In this document: in pieces, positions 24,642 to 38,996 of the stretch
Layout: every line of letters starts with the position of its first letter
Position numbering within the stretch: position 1 is the first letter of the stretch
Assembly (NCBI RefSeq): GCF_004796535.1
Contig: NZ_SPHY01000004.1
Span: 1-64,000 of the forward strand
Length of the DNA stretch: 64,000 nucleotides
From: Sphingomonas flavalba
Lineage (GTDB): Bacteria > Pseudomonadota > Alphaproteobacteria > Sphingomonadales > Sphingomonadaceae
Direction of reading: 5' to 3'
Translations under genes and position numbers: made by a program
Notes under the pieces: generated by a model
The model's input: only the letters and a program-made list of their open reading frames with translations
What the model was told of the DNA's origin: nothing
Databases searched by the model: none

Positions 24642-24664
<23 letters not shown>
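23327..24664 (+). CDS. MFS sugar transporter, FucP/glucose-galactose/GlcNAc type (445 aa)
   Basis: Inner-membrane sugar:proton symporter with 12 predicted segments. FVFGFVTWLNGPLI at the first helix and LQTAANPYIAILGP near helix 5 are the hallmarks of the FucP/GluP/NagP group. The loop between helices 6 and 7 is long, as usual. ATG 23327 or ATG 23339 (after GGGGGTGGGG) could be the start. It probably imports the monosaccharide freed by GH20 or GH16. The last 23 bases overlap the tail of the convergent CobW gene, an unusually long 3' overlap. Confidence 0.88.
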
Positions 24665-25629
<965 letters not shown>

Positions 25630-25640
<11 letters not shown>

Positions 25641-27219
25641 GCACGACCCGGCCTTCGAAGACCGTCAGTTCGACCTTCGTGTGTTCGATCGCCGATACCG
25701 GCACCTCGAACAGGTTGCGGTCGAGCACGATGAAATCGGCCGACTTCCCGACCTCGATCGATCCGGCGACAGCCCCCAGCCCCACCGCCTGCGCGCCGGC
25801 CAGCGTCAGCATTTCCAGCGCGCGTTCCAGCGACACGGCCTCCTTGCCATGCTGCAACACCCCTTGCAGGGCCGGGAAAAGATTGGGTTCGGGCAGGAAG
25901 ATCCAGTCCGTGCCGAGCGTGATTCGGGTGCCAAGCGCTGCCAGCGACGCGAACGGATAGCCCCGTTCCCTAAAGGCGGCGAGTTCCGGCGCATCGCCCA
26001 CCCAGACCGGCGGCGACATCTCCGCGGTGACGTTCAGGTCAGCGAAGCGCTTCAGGTCGTCCGCATTGACGAAGCAGCAATGGCTGACTTCCTGGATCGT
26101 CTCGCACGCGCCGCTGGCGCGCGCATCCGCTATCGCCTGCAGCACGCGCTGGACGGCGGCGTCGCCGGTGCAATGGATCTTGGCGGTGATCCCGGCCCGG
26201 TCCCATGCCTTCAGCGCCTCCGCCAGCACTTCGCGTTCGAACAGCAGCTTGCCCGGCACCGGCATGCCGGTTTCCGGGTCGAGTTGCGCGTCGGTGAAGT
26301 GCGGGGCCAGCGGCGTGCCGTCCATGAACACCTTGACGAAATCGGTGCGGACGTTGCGGCCCGAATAGGCATGGCGCCCGGCGATCAGGCGGTCCAGCTC
26401 CTCGCTGGTCGCCATGCCGAAATGCTCTTCGCGCCAGGGAATATGCGCCGCGACCCGCATCGGCAGGCTGCCGTCCTCGTCGAACGCCTTCAGGAATTCC
26501 AGTTCCGGTCGGGTCGCGGACGCCTCCTGCGCCGACGTGACGCCGAACCGGCTGGCGGTCTTCAGCGCCCATTTCAGCGCGTCGCGATAGATATCGGGGT
26601 CGCGCTGCGGAATGACGTTGACGACTTTCCACGTCGCCCGCTCGACCAGTTCGCCGGTCGGCTCGTCGCTGCCTTCGCGGCGGACGATGCGCCCGCCGAA
26701 CGGGTCCTCGGTCGCCGCGTCGATGCCCGCCAGCTCCAGCGCGCGGCTATTGGCAAGGCCGTGATGGAGCGACCAGTCGGTGAGGAAGACCGGGCGGTCG
26801 GGGAAAGCCTCGTCCAGGAATTTCCGGTCGACGGTTCCCGGCTCGGACAGCAACTGGTTGAAATCGCCGCCGATCACCCAGTCGCCCAGCTTGCCGCCCA
26901 TGCAGCGCACGCATTCGCAGAGCTGGCCGGCGTAATCGGTCGCTTTCGCGTCCGGCGACAACCGGCATTCGTAGAGGTTCTTCAGGCCGCTGAACAGCAG
27001 GTGCGAATGAGCATCGTGGATGCCCGGCATCGCCATCCGCCCACCCAGGTCGACAACCTTCCCGCCGGCGCCCAGCGCCGCGCTGATGTCGGCGGACGAG
27101 CCGACGGCAGCGATCCGGCCGTCCCGTACCAGTATCGCCTCCGCCCAGGGTCGGGCGGCATCCACCGTGTAGATGCGCCCGTTCACATAGGCCGTCGGCA
27201 CCGGGTCGTTGTCGCTCAT
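25630..27219 (-). CDS. YtcJ-type metal-dependent amidohydrolase (529 aa)
   Basis: Composite TIM-barrel amidohydrolase of the YtcJ/amidohydrolase-3 family. PGIHDAHSHLL (about 65-75) carries the first metal HxH, and TDWSLHHGLANSRAL is typical of the family. KIHCTGDAAVQRVLQA and TLGTDWIFLPEPN give the later ligands. Natural substrates of the family are mostly unknown. Start ATG 27219 gives MSDNDPVPT; earlier in-frame codons are less likely. It lies between the truncated TonB receptor and the CobW gene on the same strand and is probably cotranscribed with both. Confidence 0.85.
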
Positions 27220-27243
27220 CGGCTCTGTCCCCACCGAAAATCG

Positions 27244-28439
27244 TTACCAGCGGAAGCTGGCCGCCACGCCAAACACACGTGGCATGGCGTAACGCGACTG
27301 CACAATCCCCAGCGAGGCGAAGGACGGACCACCGTAGGTGCGGTTCTTGCGGTTGCCGATATTGTCGACGAAGGCCCGCAGGTCCCAGCCGCTGTCGAGC
27401 GTCAGCGCGATCGACGCATTATGCTTGAAATAGCCTTCCAGCGCAGTCCCCGGATCGCCGAAATTCCCGGAGAAGCGGGCGCTGCGCGCCTCGAAATTCC
27501 AGTCGAACGCCACCTCGCCGGTGCCCTCGATCGGCACGGTATAGGTCAGCCCGCCGCTGCCGCTCCATTTCGGGGCGAAGGCCATGCTGCGATCGTCGAC
27601 CACCAGGTCGCCGTTCGGCGCGGCCTTGGCCACGTCGAAGATCTTGGTCTTCAGATAGGCGGCCGATCCGTAAATGGTCAGTTCCGGCAGGACGCGCGCC
27701 TCGATCTCCGTCTCGAAGCCATAGGCCCTGGCGTCCTGGTTGGAGATCAGGCCGACCAGCCCGAAATAGTTGAACACCTGGTAGTCGTTGTAATCATAGT
27801 AGAAGATGCTGGAATTAATACGTAGCTTGCGGTCAAGCAGCGTGATCTTCTCGCCGACCTCGAAGGCATGCAGCGTCTCGTCGCCATAGGGAATCTGGCT
27901 AAGCGACGTATTGTCCGGATAGAAGCCGTTGTTGAAGCCGCCGCCTTTCGTGCCCCGCGATACGCTGGCATAGAGGAGGGTATCGGCGTTCGGCTTGTAA
28001 TCCAGCTGGATCTTGCCGGACACCAGCCAGGCGTCATAACCAAGCGCGAACGGGTTGGGCGTGCCGTCGCCGCCGTCCGCCTTCAGGAAGCACGACCCCG
28101 GCTGCCCGCTGTCGCAGGTCCGGAAGGCCGCGTTGTCCGCGTCCTTGAAGGTCTTGTCGTCATGGGTCACCCGCACGCCGGCGAGCAGGGTCAGTTCCGG
28201 CGTCAGGTCGTGCTCGACCTGCCCGAAGGCGGAGATCGAATTGGTGCGCAGCCGCCAGTCGGCGTTCAGCGACAGCGGGAACACGGCACCGTTGTACATG
28301 CCGTCCGCGGCCGGCGGGTCGACCGGGAAGTTGAACACCGCGCTCGGCTGGTTCTTGCCGGTCGCGCGCAGCGCATAGACGCCGACGGTCCAGTCGGTGG
28401 TCGCGCCGTCGTGGAACAGCCGGAATTCCTTTGCCCCGA
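27244..28439 (-). pseudogene. TonB-dependent receptor, C-terminal half only
   Basis: About 398 residues of the beta-barrel are present, from KEFRLFHDGATTDWTVGVYA to the normal terminus FGVAASFRW. TLLAGVRVTHDDKTFKD, ASVSRGTKGGGFNNGFYP and DWNFEARSARFSGNFGDP are all typical of iron/substrate receptors of the FecA-like group. No plug, TonB box or signal peptide precedes it. Instead the DNA switches at about 28440 to the middle of a LysR gene in another frame. The missing roughly 350 residues mean no functional receptor can be made. It looks like one side of a deletion. Confidence 0.75.
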
Positions 28440-29033
28440 TATCTGCGCCGGCAGGATCGCCTTCTCCCGGGCCAGCGCGTGGCTTTCGGGGACGAACAGA
28501 GAAAAGGGCTGACGCGTGGTCGCCAGGATCTTCAGCGGAACATCCTGCGCGGTGTCGAACAGAAGGCCGAACTGCGCGCTGTCGTTCAGCACCAGATTCT
28601 GCGCCTCGTCGCCATCGACGGTGCGCATCTCGATGTTGATGTCGGGGAACCTGCCGCACACCGCCGCGAACGCCTTCAGGAAGCGGCCGGCGAGCAGCCC
28701 CTGCGCGACGACGACGCGGATCGTCGACGATCGCGTGCTGCGCAGGTCGGCGAGGCGGACCATCAGTTCCTGATGCTCGACAACGCGGCGGTCGTAATAT
28801 TCGACCAGCAACTGGCCGGCTTCGGTCAGCTGGACCTTGTACGACCCCTTGACGACCAGATCGATGCTGAGCACGCGCTCGAGCAGCTTGATCTGCCGGC
28901 TGATCGAAGAGGCGGCGACACCGAGGTAATCGGCGGCGGCGCGCATCGAGCCATGGCGCGCGCATAACGACAGATATTGCAGCCGATGATCCTGGACGCT
29001 GATCTCGTAGGTGCGGCGGCTTACACCTGGCAT
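28440..29033 (-). pseudogene. LysR-type regulator, truncated after about 198 residues
   Basis: An intact LysR HTH (about 15-75: YLSLCARHGSMRAAADYLGV followed by SSISRQIKLLERVL) and the first lobe of the effector domain (TIRVVVAQGLLAGRFLK ... LFVPESHALAREKAILP) are present. At about 28440 similarity stops. The frame then runs 57 nonsense residues inside TonB-receptor DNA before a stop at 28266. LysR proteins are about 300 residues, so the second lobe is missing. The start ATG abuts the TAG of the NTF2-like gene upstream. The product may still bind DNA but should not sense an effector normally. Confidence 0.75.
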
Positions 29034-29534
29034 CTAGCTGTCCACTCTCCGCCGGCCGCGGGCCGCTGCCTGGGGCCGCATGCCACGTCGGCGCGGGATC
29101 CGCATCGTGTCGATCTCGTCGATCGAAGGCGCGAATTCCAGTTCGGTCAGCAGCAGGTCCTGCTCGGCGAAGAAGAAATCGCGGGACACGAACCAGTCGC
29201 CGTCCACCTCCTGCCAGATCATCAGCACGCGGTGGATCTCGATCTCTCCGCTGGTCAGCGTGTTGCGGTTGGTGATGTTGCCGAACGCCACCTTGCCGAC
29301 CACGGTGAGCGCGTCGAGCTCGATGTCGATCCGGCAGCACGCGCTCCGCGCCTCGGTGAAGATGCGGGTGATCGCCTTGTGGCCGACCTGGGCCGGCAGG
29401 TCCCGCCCTTCCATCACCGCGTCGGGCAGATAGAAATCCCGGACCATCGCGGGGATCCGCTTCGCGCGGAAACGGCTCTCGAACTGCCTGCACTTGCTGG
29501 CCACCCGCTGCGAAACGGCCTCTACACCAGACAT
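29034..29534 (-). CDS. NTF2/SnoaL-like protein (166 aa)
   Basis: Cone-shaped NTF2-like fold inferred from SKCRQFESRFRAKRIPAMVR, FYLPDAVMEGRD, GHKAITRIFTEAR, VGKVAFGNITNRN and IWQEVDGDWFVSRDFFF, the usual pattern of a small alpha+beta barrel. No catalytic Asp-His pair can be picked out with certainty. Arg-rich residues at the C-terminus (RRRGMRPQAAARGRRR) are odd for the family and could reflect decay near the rearranged region. ATG 29534 is preferred over one five codons earlier. It sits between another SnoaL-like gene and the broken LysR gene. Confidence 0.65.
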   Translation of the reverse strand: MSGVEAVSQRVASKCRQFESRFRAKRIPAMVRDFYLPDAVMEGRDLPAQVGHKAITRIFTEARSACCRIDIELDALTVVGKVAFGNITNRNTLTSGEIEIHRVLMIWQEVDGDWFVSRDFFFAEQDLLLTELEFAPSIDEIDTMRIPRRRGMRPQAAARGRRRVDS

Positions 29535-29585
29535 CCGGAACCACTCCATCCCATGCAGAAATCCGTGACGGCCAGCGGCGGCGGG

Positions 29586-30008
29586 CTAGCTGCCAAGGGC
29601 GTCCACCACCGCCGCCGTGTCAAGAAACTCCTCGAAACTCGTCATCAGGCCGTCCTTCACCCGATAGACGTGCACCCATTCCACGCGGTATTCCCGACCC
29701 GTCGCCAGCGACACGCTGTGCTCCACGCCGCGTCCCAGCACGCTGCCGTCCGCCGCCCCACCGGCAATGCCGACCAGCGCGGACGGCGTCATCTCCTTGA
29801 TGCGGATGGTTTCCGCCGCGCGGGCGAAAAACTGCCTTACCCCGTCATGGCCGCGGAACGCGCCGGCGAAGGGAATCCTGTCCTCCGGCCCATAGTATGT
29901 CCAGGTGATGTCCGGCGCGAGCATGGCGAACGCCCCGTCCATGTCGCCGGCGCCGAACGCGGTGAAGAACCGCCTGACGACGTCGGCACTATCCTGGGGA
30001 CTCGTCAT
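29586..30008 (-). CDS. SnoaL-like NTF2-family protein (140 aa)
   Basis: Ketosteroid-isomerase-like/SnoaL fold: RRFFTAFGAGDMDGAFAML, PDITWTYYGPEDRIPFAG, FRGHDGVRQFFARAAETI, VEWVHVYRVKDGLMTSFEEF. The same motifs (TWTYYGPPDKLPFGG, HVFKVRDGKIVSFEEF) occur in the N-terminal domain of the cytochrome c fusion at 36342-37448, so the two are paralogues in one neighbourhood. The substrate is unknown. It is the first gene of the minus-strand series that includes the second NTF2 protein, LysR fragment and amidohydrolase, and is divergent from the APC permease gene (238 bp between starts). Confidence 0.8.
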   Translation of the reverse strand: MTSPQDSADVVRRFFTAFGAGDMDGAFAMLAPDITWTYYGPEDRIPFAGAFRGHDGVRQFFARAAETIRIKEMTPSALVGIAGGAADGSVLGRGVEHSVSLATGREYRVEWVHVYRVKDGLMTSFEEFLDTAAVVDALGS

Positions 30009-30246
30009 CGCGACACCTCATCGAAGCTGGCGCGCCGGTGGGGGCGGTTCCCCGGCGGGCCGATTGATCCGGCGCGGATTGATGACGATACCGGCCTGAA
30101 GGTCAATATCGGCAGCCAGAGCGGTTGTTGCGCCGCCGGCAACATTTTCGCCGCCGGGCGGGATTGAGCGTTTGCGCTATTCCCGCGAAGCATGCGCCGG
30201 ATGATGGTGCGCGCTCGCCACGCATCCGCAGCCGGAGGCCGATATA

Positions 30247-31716
30247 TTGCACGACACGACCACCACACCACCCGCCGCGGCGGAAGATCGGCTTTCGGAA
30301 GGCGTGCTGGGCAGCGTCGACATCACCTTCATGGTGCTGGCGGTGGCGGCGCCGATGGCGATCGTGGTGGCGACGATGCCGATCGCCTTCGCGCTCGGCA
30401 ACGGCATGGGGGTCGCCGGGACGTATGCGATGTCCGGGCTGGCGATCACGCTGTTCGCCATCGGCTATGTCCGCCTCATCCCCTACATCCGCAATGCGGG
30501 GGCGTTCTACGCGATCATCTCGCAGACCTTCGGAAAGGTCGTCGGGCTTGGCGGCTCCTACGTGGCGCTGGTCTCCTACATGGCGCTGAGCTGCGCGACG
30601 CTGGGGGCACTGTCCTATTTCCTCACCGGCTTCCTGCACACGCTCGGCCTGGATTTCCTGCACTGGGGCGCGGTGGCGCTGGCGACCGTCGCCATTCTCG
30701 CCACCCTGTCCTATTTCCGCATCGATTTCACCGCGAAGCTGCTGGCGGTGGCGCTGGGTGCGGAGGTGCTGGCCATTCTCCTGCTCGATTTCGCCATCCT
30801 GCATGCAGAGGGTCTCGGCACGCCGCGCGCGGTGTTCGCACCTTCGGTCGTCTTCGCGCCGGGCTTCGGCGTCGCCGCGATCTATGCGTTCAACTCGGTG
30901 ATCGGCTTCGAGGCGACGGCGATCTATCAGGAAGAGGCCCGCAACCCGCGGGTGAGCATTCCGCGCGCAACCTATGCCGCGATCGTCGTCATCTGCCTGT
31001 TCTACGTGTTCACCGCCTACGCCTTCGCCGTCGCCAACGGGCCGGGCATCGCGGCGATCGCGGGCAAGGATCCCGGTGCGTTCGTCTTCGGCATGGCCCG
31101 TCATTATCTGGGCCGCGAGGCGGAGACCGTTCTGTCGCTGCTGGTGATCAGCAGCGCCTTCGCCGCCGCGCTCGGCCTGTTCAACAACAGCACCCGCTAC
31201 ATGTTCGCGCTCGCCCGCGACGGCGTGCTGCCGGCCTTCCTCGCCCGCACGCGCAAAGCGAACGGCGCGCCGTTCAACGCCGGCCTGCCGATCGTCGCCG
31301 TCCTCTCGATCGTCATCATCCTGTTCGCGCTGGCCGGGCTTGATCCGCTGCTGTCGCTGACCACCGCGCTCACCGGCTTCGGCTCCGTCGGGCTGATGGC
31401 GCTGCTATGCGTCACCGCCTTCGCCGTGCCGTTCTTCCTGCGCGCCGAAACCGGCGGCTTTGGCCGCGTGTCGCTCTTTCCCTTCGCGGGCGGGCTGCTG
31501 CTGCTCGCCGGCACGGTCATGTCGGTCGGCAACTACCCGCTGCTGACCGGCACGGATTCGGTGCTCGTCAACCGCCTGCCGATCCTGCTGGTGGTGATCG
31601 CGCTGGCCGGCGGGCTGCAGGCGGTGGCGCTGCGCCGTCGCCGGCCGGACATCTTCGCGCGCATCGGCTCCAGCCGGATCGCCGGCCAACCATCCAGCCA
31701 GGAGAAGACCCCATGA
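30247..31716 (+). CDS. APC-family amino acid/amine permease (489 aa)
   Basis: Inner-membrane transporter with 12 apparent helices. The first is unwound at VAAPMAIVVATMP. FNSVIGFEATAIYQEEARNP is the conserved helix-6/loop region of APC carriers. The start is a TTG at 30247, the only start codon before the first helix with a plausible site (GGAGG about nine bases upstream). Its stop overlaps the ATG of the aldehyde dehydrogenase (ATGA). With the dehydrogenase and the flavoproteins on the other strand it probably imports an amine or amino acid that is oxidised to an aldehyde. Confidence 0.88.
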   Translation: MHDTTTTPPAAAEDRLSEGVLGSVDITFMVLAVAAPMAIVVATMPIAFALGNGMGVAGTYAMSGLAITLFAIGYVRLIPYIRNAGAFYAIISQTFGKVVGLGGSYVALVSYMALSCATLGALSYFLTGFLHTLGLDFLHWGAVALATVAILATLSYFRIDFTAKLLAVALGAEVLAILLLDFAILHAEGLGTPRAVFAPSVVFAPGFGVAAIYAFNSVIGFEATAIYQEEARNPRVSIPRATYAAIVVICLFYVFTAYAFAVANGPGIAAIAGKDPGAFVFGMARHYLGREAETVLSLLVISSAFAAALGLFNNSTRYMFALARDGVLPAFLARTRKANGAPFNAGLPIVAVLSIVIILFALAGLDPLLSLTTALTGFGSVGLMALLCVTAFAVPFFLRAETGGFGRVSLFPFAGGLLLLAGTVMSVGNYPLLTGTDSVLVNRLPILLVVIALAGGLQAVALRRRRPDIFARIGSSRIAGQPSSQEKTP

Positions 31717-33221
31717 CCACAGCCAACGACCTTTCGCTGCTCAGCGCCAAGGCGGCCGCTTTCATCTCCGGCGAAAAGGCGCTGTTCATCGACGGCGAAT
31801 GGCGCCCGGCCGAAACCGGAGAGACGCTGCCGGTGATCGACCCGAGCAGCGGCCGGGAAGTCGGCCGGATCGCGCAGGCGGGCGCCGCCGACGTCGACGC
31901 GGCGGTGCGGGCGGCACGGCGCGGGCTGGAAGATTCGGCCTGGGCGCGAATGCGCCCCCATCGGCGCGAGGAGATCATGCTGCGGCTGGCCGAGCTGATC
32001 GGCGCCGAAGCCCAGGCGCTCGCCGAGATAGAGACCGTCAACAGCGGCAAGCTGATCAGCAACACCCGGCTGTTCGACGCCGACCTGTCCGTCCACACGC
32101 TGCGCTACATGGCCGGCTGGGCGACGAAGCTGCACGGCGAGACGATGGACCTGTCCGTCCCCTATCTGCCGGACGTCCGCTTCAACGGCTTCACCCGCCG
32201 CTTTCCGATCGGCGTCGTCGCCGCGATCACGCCGTGGAACGTGCCGCTGTGCCAGGCGGTGTGGAAGCTGGCGCCAGTGCTGGCGACGGGCTGCACCCTG
32301 GTGCTCAAGCCGTCCGAGTTCACCTCGCTGACCGCGCTGCGCCTGGCCGAGCTGTGCGACGAGGCCGGCGTGCCGCCGGGGGTGGTGAACGTTGTCACCG
32401 GCGTCGGGGAAGTGACCGGCAAGGCGCTGGTCGAGCATCCGGGCGTCGACAAGATCAGCTTCACCGGCTCGACCCGCGTCGGGCTGGAGATCGCCGCGCA
32501 GGCAGCCAGCACCTTCAAGAGCTACAATCTGGAACTCGGCGGGAAATCCCCGCTGATCATCGCCGAGGACGCCGATCTCGAAAAGGCCATTCCCGGCGCG
32601 GCATGGGCGATCTACGGCAATTCGGGGCAGAATTGCTGCGCCGGTTCGCGCGCGCTGATCCACGCGAGGCATTTCGACCGGGTGGTCGCGGGCGTGGCGG
32701 ACATCGCCGCGTCGGTCCGCCTCGGTCCCGGCCTCGACCCGGCGTCGATGATGGGGCCGCTGGTGCGCGACAGCCACCGCGCCCGCGTCGCGCAGCATGT
32801 CGAGCGGGCGCGCGCCGCCGGCGCGCAGGTCATCGGCGGCGAAAGCGTCGACGGCGCCGGCAGCTATTTCACCCCCGCGGTGATCACCGGCCTCGATCAC
32901 ACCCATCCGACAGTGCAGCAGGAGATCTTCGGCCCGGTGCTGTGCGCCTTTGCGTTCAGGGACGACGACGAGGCCCTGCGCATCGCCAACGACACGCGGT
33001 TCGGGCTCGGCGCCAGCATCTGGACGGAGGGGCTGCAAAGGGCCAACCGCTATTTCGAGCGGCTGAAGGCCGGCACGGTCTGGATCAACACCCACAACAT
33101 CCTCGACCTTGCCCTGCCGTTCGGCGGCACCAAGGAATCGGGGGTCGGCTTCGAACTGGGCCGCGAAGGCGTGTTCTCGCACACCGTGGTCCGCGCCGGG
33201 GTGATGCCGGTCGCGGACTGA
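31713..33221 (+). CDS. NAD(P)-dependent aldehyde dehydrogenase (502 aa)
   Basis: Complete ALDH-superfamily enzyme. It has ITPWNVPLCQAVWKLAPVLA for the NAD-binding start, FTGSTRVGLEIA, catalytic Glu in NLELGGKSPLI (about 272) and catalytic Cys in SGQNCCAGSR (about 309). PFGGTKESGVGFELG lies near the end. It is most like betaine-aldehyde/phenylacetaldehyde-type dehydrogenases by motif, but the substrate cannot be read off. It overlaps the permease by 4 bases, and only 8 bases separate it from the convergent DadA-like gene. It would oxidise the aldehyde left after amine oxidation. Confidence 0.92.
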   Translation: MTTANDLSLLSAKAAAFISGEKALFIDGEWRPAETGETLPVIDPSSGREVGRIAQAGAADVDAAVRAARRGLEDSAWARMRPHRREEIMLRLAELIGAEAQALAEIETVNSGKLISNTRLFDADLSVHTLRYMAGWATKLHGETMDLSVPYLPDVRFNGFTRRFPIGVVAAITPWNVPLCQAVWKLAPVLATGCTLVLKPSEFTSLTALRLAELCDEAGVPPGVVNVVTGVGEVTGKALVEHPGVDKISFTGSTRVGLEIAAQAASTFKSYNLELGGKSPLIIAEDADLEKAIPGAAWAIYGNSGQNCCAGSRALIHARHFDRVVAGVADIAASVRLGPGLDPASMMGPLVRDSHRARVAQHVERARAAGAQVIGGESVDGAGSYFTPAVITGLDHTHPTVQQEIFGPVLCAFAFRDDDEALRIANDTRFGLGASIWTEGLQRANRYFERLKAGTVWINTHNILDLALPFGGTKESGVGFELGREGVFSHTVVRAGVMPVAD

Positions 33222-33229
33222 GGGCGCGC

Positions 33230-34531
33230 CTACAGCCGCTCCAGCCGGTACGGTGCCGGATCGACGATCGGCGCCGAGCCCGTCGCGAGGTCGGCGGCAA
33301 GCTGCCCCGCCGCCGGCGATGTTCCGAAGCCGTGCCCGGAAAAGCCGGAGGCGAGGGTCAGGCCCGGCAGCTTCGCCACCGGCGCGATCACCGGCAGCGA
33401 ATCCGGAGTGACGTCGATCATCCCGGCCCAGGCCTGCCGGACCACCGCCTGGCCGAAAACCGGCCAGGCCGCGGCAAGGTTGCGCATCGCCTCCGCGTTC
33501 AGGCCCGCGTTGACCGGCGGGTCCATCGTCCGCACCCGTTCGAACGGCGACGGCGAACCCGCGCGCCAGCGGCGCGGCAGCGCCAGGTCGTCCAGCAGGG
33601 CGCGGCCCAGCGACAGCCTGATGCTTTTCCACTGCGTCCGCAGCATCGGCAGGTAGCGCAGCCCGATCAGCAGATTGTCCAGCACCAGCGGCGCGACGAA
33701 GGCGCCGCGCTGGGTGATCGTGTAGCCGCCGTCATGGCTCTTGCGGAACGAGAAGTCCGGCGCGCCGACCGCGATGTCCGTCGGCCCCTCCATCGGCGCG
33801 GTGCGCAGCACGGACGCCACCACCGGCAGGGTCGGCAGCGCAACGCCGTGATTGCCGAGGAAACGACGCGACCACAATCCCCCCGCCAGTATGACCTGGT
33901 TGCAGCGCAGCTCGCCGCGTTCGGTGACGACGCCGCTGACCCGGCCGGCGGTCGTCGACAGGGTCCGCACCGCGCAATTCTCGACGATCACCGCGCCAAG
34001 TGCCATCGCCCTGCTGGCGATCGCGCTCGATGCGAGCGTCGGCTCCGCGCGCCCGTCGGTGGACGTGAAGATGCCCCCTGCCCAGCCCCCCGTCCCGCCC
34101 GGCACCAGTCGGTCGATGTCGGCGGCGGACAACAGCCGCGAGTCCGGCGACGCCGCGCCGACCCGCTGCAGCCACCCGCGATGCGCCGCCATTTCCGCAT
34201 CGGTACGCGCTATGTACATGATGCCAGCGCGGCGATAGCCGACATCCGCGCCCACCCGCTCGGCCATCGCCGCCCATAGCCGGTCGGACGCGAGCGCGAG
34301 CGGCAGGTCGTCCTCCTCCCGCCCCATCTTGCGGACCCAGCCGAGGTTGCGCGAGGACTGTTCTCCGGCGATCCGGCCCTTTTCCAGCACCACCGCCGGA
34401 ATGCCGCGCTCGGCCAGGGTCAAGGCCGCGGTAAGGCCGATGATGCCGCCGCCGATGATCGCCACCGTCGTCGTCGCCGGCAGCGTCCCGCCGGTCCGGA
34501 CCGGAACGATGGCTGGGGCCCTGTTTTCCAT
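33230..34531 (-). CDS. DadA-like FAD-dependent amino acid oxidoreductase (433 aa)
   Basis: D-amino-acid dehydrogenase/glycine-oxidase fold. VAIIGGGIIGLTAALTLAER (about 24-43) is the FAD Rossmann motif, SSRNLGWVRKMG follows where DAO-type enzymes bind the flavin, and DSLPVIAPV with SGFSGHGFGTSPAAG closes the FAD site. No signal peptide. ATG 34531 is preferred over a TTG two codons before. It is the last gene of the minus-strand series flavoprotein / cytochrome / OCD-like / Rid. It is also the only D-amino-acid dehydrogenase candidate in the window that could oxidise cis-4-hydroxy-D-proline, although it lies outside that island. Confidence 0.85.
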   Translation of the reverse strand: MENRAPAIVPVRTGGTLPATTTVAIIGGGIIGLTAALTLAERGIPAVVLEKGRIAGEQSSRNLGWVRKMGREEDDLPLALASDRLWAAMAERVGADVGYRRAGIMYIARTDAEMAAHRGWLQRVGAASPDSRLLSAADIDRLVPGGTGGWAGGIFTSTDGRAEPTLASSAIASRAMALGAVIVENCAVRTLSTTAGRVSGVVTERGELRCNQVILAGGLWSRRFLGNHGVALPTLPVVASVLRTAPMEGPTDIAVGAPDFSFRKSHDGGYTITQRGAFVAPLVLDNLLIGLRYLPMLRTQWKSIRLSLGRALLDDLALPRRWRAGSPSPFERVRTMDPPVNAGLNAEAMRNLAAAWPVFGQAVVRQAWAGMIDVTPDSLPVIAPVAKLPGLTLASGFSGHGFGTSPAAGQLAADLATGSAPIVDPAPYRLERL

Positions 34532-34575
34532 CTTCAAACCCCCTATCCGGCGATTGCCTGCGCAGCCGCTGCCCG

Positions 34576-34998
34576 TCAGGCGGGAAGCACGATCTCTTCG
34601 ACATCGGCCGCCGACGCGCCGCGCCAGGCCGTTACCTCGATCTCCACCTTGAACGCGCTCGAGCCCAGCGGCGGAGAGGTCAGGGTCAGGGTCGGCTCGA
34701 TCCCGCGCATCCGCTCCGCATAGGCCGCCATTACCGCGTCGATATCCTCCGGGAACTGGATGAACACGCGCGCTGCGACGACATCGGCCAGGGTCGCGTC
34801 CACCGCCGCCAGCGCCCGCTCGATGTTGGCGAGCACCTGGCGCGTCTGCTCGGCCGGATCGGCGAGGATCAGCCCGGTCTGCGGATGGCGCCCGGCGGTG
34901 TTCGACACGAAGATCAGGTCGTCCACCGCGACGATGCGCGAATAGCTGCCCAGCGCCTCGGCCTTGGACCCCGTCTTGACCTTCACGATAGCGACCAT
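34576..34998 (-). CDS. Rid-family protein lacking the usual Arg (140 aa)
   Basis: YjgF/Rid fold: SYSRIVAVDDLIFVSNTAGR near the N-terminus, QVLANIERALAAVDATLADV in the middle and FKVEIEVTAW at the end. Where active RidA proteins have PARS with a substrate-binding Arg, this one reads PTLTLTSPPLGSS. Enamine deaminase activity is therefore doubtful, and it may belong to another Rid subgroup. It is 42 bp downstream of the OCD-like gene and 44 bp upstream of the DadA-like gene. A role with imines produced by the flavoproteins is plausible. Confidence 0.85.
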   Translation of the reverse strand: MVAIVKVKTGSKAEALGSYSRIVAVDDLIFVSNTAGRHPQTGLILADPAEQTRQVLANIERALAAVDATLADVVAARVFIQFPEDIDAVMAAYAERMRGIEPTLTLTSPPLGSSAFKVEIEVTAWRGASAADVEEIVLPA

Positions 34999-35040: not shown

Positions 35041-36210
35041 TCAGCGCAGCGCCGGCTGCTCCCACAGGTTGAGCCTGACGCCGATGCCGTTCCGCACCGC
35101 ATTGCGATAGACGACGGTGCCCCAGGCCACGTCCTCCACCGGCATGCCGCCCACCGACATGATGATGATCTCGTCGTCGCCGGTGCGCCCCGCCGCCTCG
35201 CCGGCGACGATCTTGCCGAGGTCCTCGAGCGCGCTGCGCGGCACCCGGCCTTCCGCGACCAGATCGAGGTAGCGGATGCCAACGACCGGAACCAGCTTGT
35301 GGACCGGCTTGGGGTTTTCCTCGTACCAGGCTTCATAGAGGCCGGGATTGTCCAGCACCTTGCGGACATCGGCCGCCTCCATACCTTCGTCGACATTGGT
35401 GAGCGAGGGCATCGACAGGAAGGTCCCGGGGCTGACCCATTCCCGCTTCACCGTCGGGTAGAGCGACGGATCGCCGATCGCGCCGGACTGGCAGAAGGTG
35501 ACGATGTCGGATTCGCGCACCACCGCCTCGACGCTGTCGACGACCTGCACGTTGGTGACCTGCGGGTAGGTTTCCGCCAGCCAAGCGAGGAAGGCGTCCA
35601 GGCTTTTCTGCCCGCGCCCCTTCACCTTCACCGTATCGATCTGCGGGCAGACCGCGATGAATGCCGCGAGCGAGGTCCTCGCCATGACCCCCGGCCCCAG
35701 AATGCCGACCACCCTGGAATCCTTCCGCGCCAGATGGCGCGCGCCCACCCCCGGCACGGCGCCGGTGCGATAGGCCGAAAGCAGGTTCGCCGACATGAAG
35801 GCGAGCGGTGCGCCGCTGTCGGCGTCGTTCAGCACGAAGGTCAGGATCGAGCGCGGCAGGCCCTTGGAACGATTTTCGATATTGGAGCCGTACCATTTCA
35901 TTCCGGCGGTGCGGAAACGCCCGCCCAGATAGGCCGGCATCGCCATGAAGCGGCGGTCGGGCGTCGCCTTGGGCATGTCCGGGAACGGCGAATTGTCCGG
36001 GAAGATGATGACCGACCCGTGCGAATTGTTGTTGGCGCCGGCCATGCGGTAGTCGCCGTGGTAGAGGAGCGCGAACATCTCCTCCATCGTGTCGACGCAA
36101 GCCGCCATGTCGGTCACCCCGGCACGGATCATGTCCGCTTCGGACAGATAGAGGAAATCGATCCGCGTCGACGCGTCCGCTACCTGCGCTGTTTCTACGA
36201 CGCTATGCAT
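35041..36210 (-). CDS. Ornithine cyclodeaminase/mu-crystallin-family protein ('tyramine oxidase subunit B' type) (389 aa)
   Basis: NAD(P)-binding OCD/mu-crystallin fold. YLSEADMIRAGVTDMAACVD and MEEMFALLYHGDYRMAG open the protein, KWYGSNIENRSKGLPRS and SANLLSAYRTGAVPGVGARH are the conserved core, and VVGILGPGVMAR is the dinucleotide loop. The N-terminal pattern is that of proteins annotated as tyramine oxidase subunit B. That name implies an amine substrate but biochemical support is thin as far as I recall. ATG 36210 is chosen; an ATG at 36225 would add five residues. It fits an amine-oxidation operon. Confidence 0.8.
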   Translation of the reverse strand: MHSVVETAQVADASTRIDFLYLSEADMIRAGVTDMAACVDTMEEMFALLYHGDYRMAGANNNSHGSVIIFPDNSPFPDMPKATPDRRFMAMPAYLGGRFRTAGMKWYGSNIENRSKGLPRSILTFVLNDADSGAPLAFMSANLLSAYRTGAVPGVGARHLARKDSRVVGILGPGVMARTSLAAFIAVCPQIDTVKVKGRGQKSLDAFLAWLAETYPQVTNVQVVDSVEAVVRESDIVTFCQSGAIGDPSLYPTVKREWVSPGTFLSMPSLTNVDEGMEAADVRKVLDNPGLYEAWYEENPKPVHKLVPVVGIRYLDLVAEGRVPRSALEDLGKIVAGEAAGRTGDDEIIIMSVGGMPVEDVAWGTVVYRNAVRNGIGVRLNLWEQPALR

Positions 36211-36341
36211 GGGCGCTTCCCGCATGCGCGGTCGGCATATGGGCATAACCGCCATATGCGCGGGAATTCGGTCGCCTCGATATTTCCAATGCACGGGACT
36301 TTCTTCTTATGGTCATCGAAAATGCTCTCAATCTGGATTGA

Positions 36342-37448
36342 TCACTTGCCGTAATATGCGGCGAGGGCGTCGATCGCCTTGCGGTCCGGGATCGTCTGGG
36401 CCGAAGCCGCCATCGTCGCGCCGGCGACATCGTCGGCATGGTAGCCGCGCTTGCCGGTGCGGAAATTGACCAGTTGCCGGGCGATGTAGTCGGCGTCCAG
36501 CCGATCGAGCGCTGGCGCCTGCAGGGCGGCGTTGCCCTCGCCGGCCGCGCCGTGGCAGGCCGCGCAGGTGGGGACGATGGCGCGGATCGCCGCCGGCACC
36601 GGGCGGTTGGCGACCGGCGCCGCCTGCGGTTTCGGCAACGCCGTGATGTAGGACACCACCGCCTTCACCCCATCCGGCCCGGGTATGGCGGTCGCCCTGC
36701 CGACCATCTGGAAGCCGTGGGCATCGTCCAGCTTGCCGCGCTTGCCGGTGCGGTAATTGGTCAACTGGCGGGCAAGATATTCCGCATCCAGCCCGGTCAG
36801 GTCCGGCGCGTGCATATAGGCACGCCCCTGCCCGTCATTGCCATGGCAGCCAAGGCAGGTGGTGAACGCGGCCTTGCCCGCGCTTCTGTCGACGGGCCGG
36901 CGCGCGCCGCCGGCCGCCGGGGCCGATGCGGCCCGCGCGCCGCCGATTCCGGCGCTGCCGTCGCCCTGGAAGGCAAGCAGCACCTTGCCGCTGTCGATGA
37001 ACTCCTCGAAGCTGACGATCTTGCCGTCGCGCACCTTGAAGACATGGACCAGATCCGCCTTGTAGCGGATGCCGGTCTTCCGGACCGTGCTCTCCTCGGT
37101 GCCGGGAACGGCGACCATGTCGCCGGAAACGATGAATGCGCGCTGGACGGCAACCGGATTTTCAAGGGTTTCGTCGACCGTGGCGAAGAACTCTGCCACG
37201 CCCTTCGGCCCATGGCGGGTACCGCCGAACGGCAGCTTGTCGGGCGGCCCGTAATAGGTCCACGTCGCATCGGGCGCGATCAGCTGCTCGAGCGCGACCA
37301 TGTCGCCGCGCTCGAACGCCGCATATAGTTCCCGCACGACCGTGGCGGAATCCGCCGGCTTTCCGGCGGTCAGAGCCTGTTGCGCGCCGACGCCGGAGAG
37401 CAGGACCAGCGCCGCGACGATACCGGCCTTCGGCAATTTCGATGTCAT
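36342..37448 (-). CDS. Exported NTF2-like/di-haem cytochrome c fusion (368 aa)
   Basis: Three domains in one chain. A signal peptide (1-28) precedes a SnoaL/NTF2-like domain (about 34-155; TWTYYGPPDKLPFGG, HVFKVRDGKIVSFEEF). Then come two class-I cytochrome c domains with haem motifs CLGCH (198-202) and CAACH (295-299). FQMVG (Met248) and ATMAAS (Met346) are likely axial methionines. Export to the periplasm is needed for haem attachment. It lies directly after the Tat-exported flavoprotein gene (60 bp gap), so it may accept that enzyme's electrons. The NTF2 domain could bind the substrate or product. The domain order is one I do not recognise from any characterised protein. Confidence 0.88.
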   Translation of the reverse strand: MTSKLPKAGIVAALVLLSGVGAQQALTAGKPADSATVVRELYAAFERGDMVALEQLIAPDATWTYYGPPDKLPFGGTRHGPKGVAEFFATVDETLENPVAVQRAFIVSGDMVAVPGTEESTVRKTGIRYKADLVHVFKVRDGKIVSFEEFIDSGKVLLAFQGDGSAGIGGARAASAPAAGGARRPVDRSAGKAAFTTCLGCHGNDGQGRAYMHAPDLTGLDAEYLARQLTNYRTGKRGKLDDAHGFQMVGRATAIPGPDGVKAVVSYITALPKPQAAPVANRPVPAAIRAIVPTCAACHGAAGEGNAALQAPALDRLDADYIARQLVNFRTGKRGYHADDVAGATMAASAQTIPDRKAIDALAAYYGK

Positions 37449-37508
37449 GGCACGGCTTTCGGCAAGACGGGTTGCACGGGCGCGGGCATCCGGGCCGCGC
37501 GGACGGGG

Positions 37509-38996
37509 TCAGGATTCGCCATAAAAGCCATGGAACACGCCCTTCGGGTCCCACTGCCCGCGCAACGCGGCGAGGCGCTTCCACGCCTGCGGAGAGTAGC
37601 ATTCGTGGATGTCCTGCGGCCGCCCTTCCTGGTCCATCTCGTTGATGTAGCTGCCGCGCGCGACGGGCTTCAGGGCGTTGAACACCTTCAGGCAATAGGC
37701 GCGGCTCGCCGCCTCCTCCGCCGGCTCGTCCCACTCCATGTAATACGCCAGGTAGAAGCGCGCGATCCGCGAGCAGGCCGCGTCCGGCAGCGGGTTGGTC
37801 CCCATGTAGAGCAGCACCGGCGTGGCGCGCGGGGCCGGGCATTCCGGCATATGCGCCTTCAGCACCGCCATCGCCGCCTGCGGATCGTCGACCCAGACGG
37901 CGTCGCCCATCCAGTGGCCTTGCGGAAAGGACGCCTCGTTGTCGCTATAATAGCGGTCGAAATTACCTGCCCGGTTCTCGATCCTCTCGATCGCGCGGGC
38001 GATTAGCGGCTGGTCGAGCAGCGGGGTCAGCTTGCGCCGGCCTTCCGCCTCGCTGGCGACGAAGGCGTTCACGTCCAGATAGATGCGCTGGCGCTTCTCC
38101 GGCGGCTCGCCGAACGGAACGTCCGGCGCCGCGGCGATCGCGACCAACGTCTCCACGTCCTTGTCGAGCCGGGGCACGACCTCGTCCATCACCCGCGTGA
38201 CCTCGTCCAGCGCGTCGAAGGCGAACACATAGGTCGCGCCCCAGATCACCTTCGGCGCATCGAAGCACTGCAGGTGGAACTTCACCACCACCCCGAACAG
38301 GCCCGGCCCGCCGCCGCGCGCCGCCCAGAACAGGTCGGCATTGTCCTGCGCGCTGGCGCGCAGCAACCGCCCGTCGGCGGTGACGATGTCGACCGCGTTC
38401 ACCGCGAACACGCTCATGCCGCTCGACCAGGCGTTGGTGTTCATGCCGACGCCGCCGCCCAGCAGGAATCCGCTGATCGGCACCGTACCGCAATGCGCGC
38501 CGGGAAACGCCAGGCCGTCCTCCGCCAGCCGCTCGGCAAGGCCGCGGCAGAACACCCCCGGCCCGACGACGGCGGTCTTGGCCGCCTTGTCCACAGCGAT
38601 CCCGTCGAGCCGGCTGACGTCGATCAGCATGCCGGTGTCGCGCAGAAAGCAGGCGGCCATGCTGTGGCCGCCGCAGCGGGTCGTCACCTTCATGCCGTTC
38701 GCGGCAGCGAAGCGAACCGCTTCCTGCACGTCCCCGGCGCTTTCCACCTGAACGATCATGTCGGGACGGCGGTTGGCCTTGGCGCGCTGCCAGATCATCG
38801 CCTCGCGCCAGGTCTCGTATGTCTCGTCGCCCTTGACGACGACGGTGCCGGCGATCCGTTCCTGCAGCGCGGCGGCGTCGCTTCCGGCCTTGGGCCGCGA
38901 AAAGCCCTGGCAGGCCGACAGCGCCACCGCGGCGGGCACGGAAACGGCCGCAGCATTCAGAAAACGACGGCGCGACCAAAGCGCAAATCTAGCCAT
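37509..38996 (-). CDS. Tat-exported FAD-linked oxidase, berberine-bridge/PCMH type (495 aa)
   Basis: Twin-arginine signal SRRRFLNAAAVSVPAAV (8-24) with a Cys at 29 that could be lipidated (ALSACQG). The FAD-binding PCMH domain follows. His111 in TRCGGHSMA and Cys169 in GAHCGTVPISG occupy the positions used for bicovalent FAD attachment in berberine-bridge-type enzymes. GGGVGMNTNAW and FWAARGGGPGLFGVV are conserved. The C-terminal YINEMDQEG and WDPKGVFHGF are typical BBE ends. It oxidises an unknown small molecule in the periplasm. The adjacent di-haem cytochrome suggests it works as a dehydrogenase, not an oxygen-using oxidase. Confidence 0.88.
   Translation of the reverse strand: MARFALWSRRRFLNAAAVSVPAAVALSACQGFSRPKAGSDAAALQERIAGTVVVKGDETYETWREAMIWQRAKANRRPDMIVQVESAGDVQEAVRFAAANGMKVTTRCGGHSMAACFLRDTGMLIDVSRLDGIAVDKAAKTAVVGPGVFCRGLAERLAEDGLAFPGAHCGTVPISGFLLGGGVGMNTNAWSSGMSVFAVNAVDIVTADGRLLRASAQDNADLFWAARGGGPGLFGVVVKFHLQCFDAPKVIWGATYVFAFDALDEVTRVMDEVVPRLDKDVETLVAIAAAPDVPFGEPPEKRQRIYLDVNAFVASEAEGRRKLTPLLDQPLIARAIERIENRAGNFDRYYSDNEASFPQGHWMGDAVWVDDPQAAMAVLKAHMPECPAPRATPVLLYMGTNPLPDAACSRIARFYLAYYMEWDEPAEEAASRAYCLKVFNALKPVARGSYINEMDQEGRPQDIHECYSPQAWKRLAALRGQWDPKGVFHGFYGES

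Follow-up and report, generated by a model that had tools for sequence, protein, structure and literature searches.

Two adjacent genes of Sphingomonas flavalba, encoded on the reverse strand of the window (the 64,000-nucleotide stretch of contig NZ_SPHY01000004.1 analyzed here), appear to specify a periplasmic flavocytochrome-type dehydrogenase system that would pass electrons through its own di-haem cytochrome to the respiratory chain, with an NTF2-like domain most likely handling a ligand or docking. We assign this reading a probability of about 70%. Directly evident from the sequences are the domains and motifs of the two proteins, the gene fusion, the gene order, a paralogous split form and the rarity of the fusion.

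Fusion of an NTF2-like domain to a di-haem cytochrome

The first gene (36342..37448, minus strand) encodes a protein of 368 aa, in which a signal peptide, an SnoaL_2/NTF2 domain (aa 38-160) and both domains of a cytochrome c4-like di-haem module (aa 187-366) lie in a single reading frame. Pfam searches matched SnoaL_2 (PF12680) to residues 38-146 (E 7.9e-19), Cytochrom_C to two stretches (E 1.2e-17) and Cytochrome_CBB3 to residues 294-365; together with the CxxCH motifs at positions 198-202 and 295-299, these matches confirm the combination of an SnoaL/NTF2 domain with two haem domains reported in the preliminary description. Both motifs are invariant across the aligned fusions, as are Met248 and Met346, the candidate axial ligands of the haems. 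The first 31 residues resemble a Sec signal. AlphaFold modelled residues 31-160 with confidence as an NTF2 fold, its output for the haem half being unusable, and Foldseek aligned the NTF2 model with the solved NTF2-like proteins 3ebt, 3fgy and TerC at TM scores of 0.85-0.87. The fold and the SnoaL_2 profile place the domain in the NTF2-like/SnoaL superfamily.

The haem half aligned to the cytochrome c4 structure 1etp over residues 187-365 and, with its two CxxCH domains and candidate Met ligands, falls in the cytochrome c4-like class. Cytochromes c4 (1etp, 6q2u) likewise have two class-I haem domains in succession, ligated by Met, within about 180 residues, whereas in the fusion polypeptide an NTF2 domain precedes this module. 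Outside the sphingomonads, a c4-like di-haem relative of the module shares one frame with a COX-II-like protein (locus L076, 6365-7858), and this partner reads as cytochrome oxidase subunit II.

Flavoprotein encoded next to the fusion

The gene located just upstream (37509..38996, minus strand) encodes a Tat-type EncM/BBE-like flavoprotein of 495 aa, a putative dehydrogenase. Its sole Pfam match at E<=0.01 was FAD_binding_4 (PF01565, E 1.1e-25); the C-terminal BBE domain (Pfam 08031) was not detected, and no Pfam match to the flavin amine oxidoreductase fold (PF01593) was reported. The EncM structure 6fye matched residues 42-488 (E 4.4e-39), and this lengthwise homology and the PF01565 fold assign the protein to the EncM/BBE-like subgroup of the VAO/PCMH superfamily. 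The twin-Arg signal described earlier was found as the motif SRRRFLN. An 'LSAC' sequence in the window copy resembled a lipoprotein site, but this reading was dropped since the Cys is missing in orthologues. The AlphaFold model of the flavoprotein was poor (pLDDT 40) and unusable.

His111 and Cys169, previously proposed as sites of double FAD attachment, are present and invariant in all flavoproteins of this type of cluster (cluster 1) and of the split type described below (cluster 2). The residue eight positions after the Cys (Cys+8) is Phe177 in the window protein and Tyr in its counterpart from the genus G1133 (locus L125), while bicovalent BBE-like enzymes mostly have His at the equivalent position 182 (PMC4898691). 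Since Phe177 replaces this accessory His, bicovalent attachment of FAD is no more than plausible. With EncM/BBE-like flavoproteins the window protein shares sequence homology over almost all of its mature length and the positions of the covalent-FAD His and of the Cys of bicovalent members; it differs from them in its Tat signal, its cytochrome partner and the undetected BBE domain. Unlike EncM, which has no attachment Cys, it carries Cys169.

Neighbouring genes and probable substrate class

The fusion gene is followed on the minus strand by genes for an ornithine cyclodeaminase/mu-crystallin family protein (OCD; 35041..36294, true start probably near 36174; NCBIfam name 'tyramine oxidase subunit B'), a RidA-family protein (34576..34998) and a DAO-family FAD oxidoreductase (33230..34537). 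On the plus strand are encoded an aldehyde dehydrogenase (31407..33221; catalytic domain aa 124-596), whose nearest NCBIfam entry, phenylacetaldehyde dehydrogenase StyD, was below cut-off, and an amino-acid (APC) permease with the coding frame at 30247..31716 rather than 30192-31343. Beyond two genes for NTF2-like proteins, considered below, the minus strand encodes a LysR-type regulator (28428..29033), a TonB-dependent receptor (27247..28431), an Amidohydro_3 amidohydrolase (25630..27234) and a CobW-family GTPase (24642..25640). One junction near 28428-28431 cuts both the regulator, which stops after residue 202 of 321, and the receptor, of which only the C-terminal half (residues 384-781 of 781) is left. 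About 1.7 kb is absent here compared with Sphingomonas formosensis, so the importer and the regulator of the cluster look broken in the window genome or mis-assembled; both are intact in other genomes.

OCD, RidA and DAO form a widespread, fixed set of three genes shared by unrelated proteobacteria (loci L063-L068). It is carried by plasmids from Shinella, Sagittula, Martelella and Pantoea, among others, and is often accompanied by an APC permease, an AraC regulator and an aldehyde dehydrogenase. Neither its substrate nor the origin of the name 'tyramine oxidase subunit B' was found in the literature searched. Our best guess from the neighbouring genes is that the flavoprotein acts on an amine or amino-acid-like compound. 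An amine-type substrate is likelier than the lignin-like compounds suggested earlier because of the permease, the StyD-like aldehyde dehydrogenases, the DAO/RidA/OCD enzymes and an amine oxidoreductase in a third cluster (see below). A lignin-dimer pathway was rejected, as no lignostilbene or other lignin-dimer enzyme was seen nearby; two lignin papers present an analogous flavoprotein-cytochrome pair, without an NTF2-cytochrome fusion.

Distribution of the fusion and of its split form

A peptide-pattern scan of 84,980 species genomes revealed the fusion in four other species at 70%-76% identity, in all four with the gene order flavoprotein - fusion - OCD - RidA - DAO. Sampling revealed a further, more distant genus, G1133, with a fusion of 58%-60% identity, encoded in a one-direction run of flavoprotein - fusion - OCD - RidA - DAO - SnoaL - NTF2-like - LysR - TonB receptor - amidohydrolase, with the permease and the aldehyde dehydrogenase divergent from it. 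A second, distant pair (cluster 3) is present in Sphingobium CECT 9361; BLAST identities were 44% for the flavoprotein and 47% for the fusion (overall range for the fusion, 47%-50%). This pair (locus L180, 8099-10692) lies in lower-GC DNA beside genes for an amine oxidoreductase, an amino-acid permease and GH43. In total, six sphingomonad genomes contained seven copies of the fusion, each with the flavoprotein alongside. The fused ORF and the arrangement of its neighbours recur in other species, in G1133 and in the second cluster of CECT 9361, indicating that the fusion is neither an artefact nor a chance event. The possibility that the architecture is a common one was also considered, and it proved rare: among 396 genomes evenly sampled from the Sphingomonadales the window genome was the sole carrier, no further fusion was found in a phylum sample of 349 genomes, and nothing in the plasmid collection matched over 80% of it. 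No description of an NTF2 plus cytochrome c architecture was found in the literature searched.

The window genome also contains a second (type-2) cluster, AraC - TonB receptor - aldehyde dehydrogenase - flavoprotein (45% identity) - SnoaL - di-haem lipoprotein - GMC oxidoreductase, in which the SnoaL protein and the di-haem cytochrome are products of separate adjacent genes. The split type occurs as well in Sphingomonas formosensis, Rhizorhabdus histidinilytica, G1133 and Sphingomonas Y57. In the family sample (n = 199), type-1 and type-2 flavoproteins were found in exactly the same four genomes, representing four genera; were genomes independent of one another, which is not the case, the probability of this by chance would be about 1.6e-8. 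No type-2 flavoprotein was seen in Sphingobium CECT 9361, which has the second fusion instead. Trees of the flavoprotein and of the haem module separated the clusters cleanly.

Role of the NTF2 domain

A free-standing SnoaL/NTF2 protein without a signal peptide, probably cytoplasmic, is encoded at 29586..30008 (minus strand). With 42% identity to the fused domain it is the real paralogue that the preliminary description took it for, but not the immediate sister of that domain: in the NTF2 tree, with moderate support and long outgroups, the free and split SnoaL proteins grouped together and the fused domain stood apart. Equating the split SnoaL with the fused domain was rejected on the same tree and with the same caveats. 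The cluster-2 SnoaL may act in the cytoplasm since it also has no signal peptide. A third NTF2-like protein (29034..29549, minus strand) showed a weak SnoaL_2 match below the Pfam cut-off, which its orthologue from G1133 exceeded (E 1.5e-7).

The fused domain should be periplasmic since it is placed behind the signal peptide. It has in common with the free protein (P0003) the WTYYGP motif, Glu118, His135, Glu149 and Asp152, and because these are retained, handling of a ligand in the periplasm is favoured over a mere linker function; we hypothesize that the domain may bind the substrate or product of the flavoprotein. A finer version of this reading, to which we give slightly less than even odds, is that the domain is an enzyme converting the flavoprotein product (e.g., by dehydration, hydrolysis or elimination) and coupled to the electron acceptor. 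The conserved residues are indeed those common to free SnoaL proteins, and one cluster holds three NTF2-fold proteins; on the other hand, no catalytic residue is assignable in the fused domain, and the solved proteins nearest to it in Foldseek are mostly of unknown function. NTF2 enzymes are known to act in sphingomonad catabolism, namely the deformylases LdpA and PcfL, likened here by description as members of the NTF2 superfamily; the accessible part of that report mentions no cytochrome fusion for them (PMC12997858). The fused domain could also be non-catalytic, as versions of this kind exist among NTF2-like domains (PMC3924330). Its position between the signal peptide and the haem module, and its occurrence only beside this flavoprotein family, would suit a module that serves solely for docking or dimerization, joining flavoprotein and cytochrome; we regard this as possible but less probable, since the conserved polar motif is present in free proteins lacking a haem module. 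A rather doubtful proposal is that the NTF2 fold was taken over as a functional part of a periplasmic redox complex, handling the substrate or product of the flavoprotein beside the haems, and that the signal-less split SnoaL might hitch-hike across the membrane on the Tat-exported flavoprotein. If true, this would represent a new role and a new route for NTF2 proteins.

Probable electron acceptor of the flavoprotein

In the amine oxidoreductase superfamily, a Tat signal together with an operonic cytochrome predicts cytochrome-using dehydrogenases, as demonstrated kinetically (PMC12224317), and both features are present here, as a sequence motif and in the gene order. NicA2/Pnao with CycN and the related amine dehydrogenases of that study similarly pair a Tat-exported FAD enzyme with an operonic, Sec-exported c-type cytochrome acceptor, and some such enzymes are fused to their cytochrome. 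They differ in having the flavin amine oxidoreductase fold instead of the VAO/BBE fold and a partner described without an NTF2 domain, rather than a two-haem c4-like module with one. Thus, judging from its sequence, the window flavoprotein would work like NicA2/CycN-type dehydrogenases but is not a member of that family.

The oxygen pocket of EcBBE is formed by Gly164, Val169 and His174 (PMC7312611), and the equivalents in AtBBE-like 28 are positions 172, 174, 177 and 182 (PMC4898691); the spacing of the latter places the pocket residues at Cys-2, Cys+3 and Cys+8 relative to the attachment Cys. Replacement G164A drastically lowers the O2 reaction of EcBBE (PMC7312611), Ala at the first gatekeeper denies O2 entry (PMC4898691), and the gatekeepers expected to close the pocket in dehydrogenase-type BBE-like enzymes are Ala two positions before the attachment Cys or Leu/Ile three positions after it (PMC4898691, PMC7312611). 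In the window flavoprotein, Ala167 at Cys-2 is dehydrogenase-type and Val172 at Cys+3 oxidase-type, and Ala167 and Phe177 stand in place of Gly164 and His174 of EcBBE. Read from whole ORFs, the Cys-2 residue was Ala in each of the 10 flavoproteins encoded next to a di-haem gene and in 8 homologues lacking such a neighbour; it was Gly in 38 homologues, none of which (0/38) had one. This contrast is supporting evidence only, being confounded by ancestry, as the cytochrome-bearing flavoproteins form one group. At locus L055 (6584-9451), a related Ala-type flavoprotein gene adjoins a gene of the octopine/nopaline dehydrogenase family, and a di-haem cytochrome is encoded at a distance of 6 kb.

Alternatively, the flavoprotein could be an H2O2-forming oxidase or an EncM-like oxygenase, with the NTF2-cytochrome working in a different reaction of the cluster or for a different dehydrogenase. 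Among proteins of solved structure, those most closely related to the flavoprotein are EncM, which is a flavin-dependent oxygenase, and 6-hydroxy-D-nicotine oxidase, and Val172 is oxidase-type (PMC4898691). However, Ala167 is invariant at the first gatekeeper, the di-haem gene is strictly adjacent in all copies of clusters 1, 2 and 3, and Tat export is predicted, making this alternative improbable. A periplasmic dehydrogenase delivering electrons to the respiratory chain, as proposed in the preliminary description, is well supported, albeit indirectly, by the Tat signal and the predicted Sec-exported di-haem partner, the strict neighbourhood, Ala167 and the homology to cytochrome c4. Decay of the NTF2 domain, as the relic of a fusion in a cluster that is also decaying, might be suggested by the truncated receptor and LysR genes but is highly improbable, given that these genes are intact elsewhere and that the fused gene is intact and the NTF2 motifs invariant in 7/7 copies at 50%-77% overall identity.

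Proposed mechanism and its significance

From these features we infer the export, electron transfer, substrate class and NTF2 role of the following scheme. The flavoprotein would fold around FAD, be exported by Tat and oxidize a small organic substrate in the periplasm. Because Ala167 is proposed to close the oxygen pocket, the reduced flavin would give up its electrons to the c4-like di-haem tail of the fusion, itself exported by Sec, and this tail would hand them to a terminal oxidase. The periplasmic NTF2 domain beside the haems would most likely bind or convert the flavoprotein ligand (substrate or product) or dock the flavoprotein. The amino-acid permease could import the oxidized product, whose breakdown would be completed by DAO/RidA/OCD and the aldehyde dehydrogenase.

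The pair belongs to the known kind of periplasmic flavoenzyme with a dedicated cytochrome, the NTF2 domain being its unusual part. Flavoproteins of the p-cresol methylhydroxylase type represent another VAO subfamily. In such flavocytochromes, as in PinVW and PinAB, a flavoprotein is co-expressed with its cognate cytochrome and works in the way proposed here, but the reports describe the cytochrome partner without an NTF2 domain (PMC12607616, PMC12997858).

The findings would extend the rule that a Tat flavoenzyme with an operonic cytochrome is a cytochrome-using dehydrogenase to BBE/EncM-type flavoproteins, and the replacement A167G makes it possible to test oxygen exclusion in bacteria through a single residue. 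Covalent joining of an NTF2 domain, putatively ligand-binding, to an electron-transfer module has no precedent in the literature searched. With their receptor, permease and catabolic enzymes, the clusters that recur outline an uncharacterized periplasmic catabolic pathway in sphingomonads, and in the few soil members that carry it the pair most likely serves to channel electrons from a scavenged organic compound straight into respiration.
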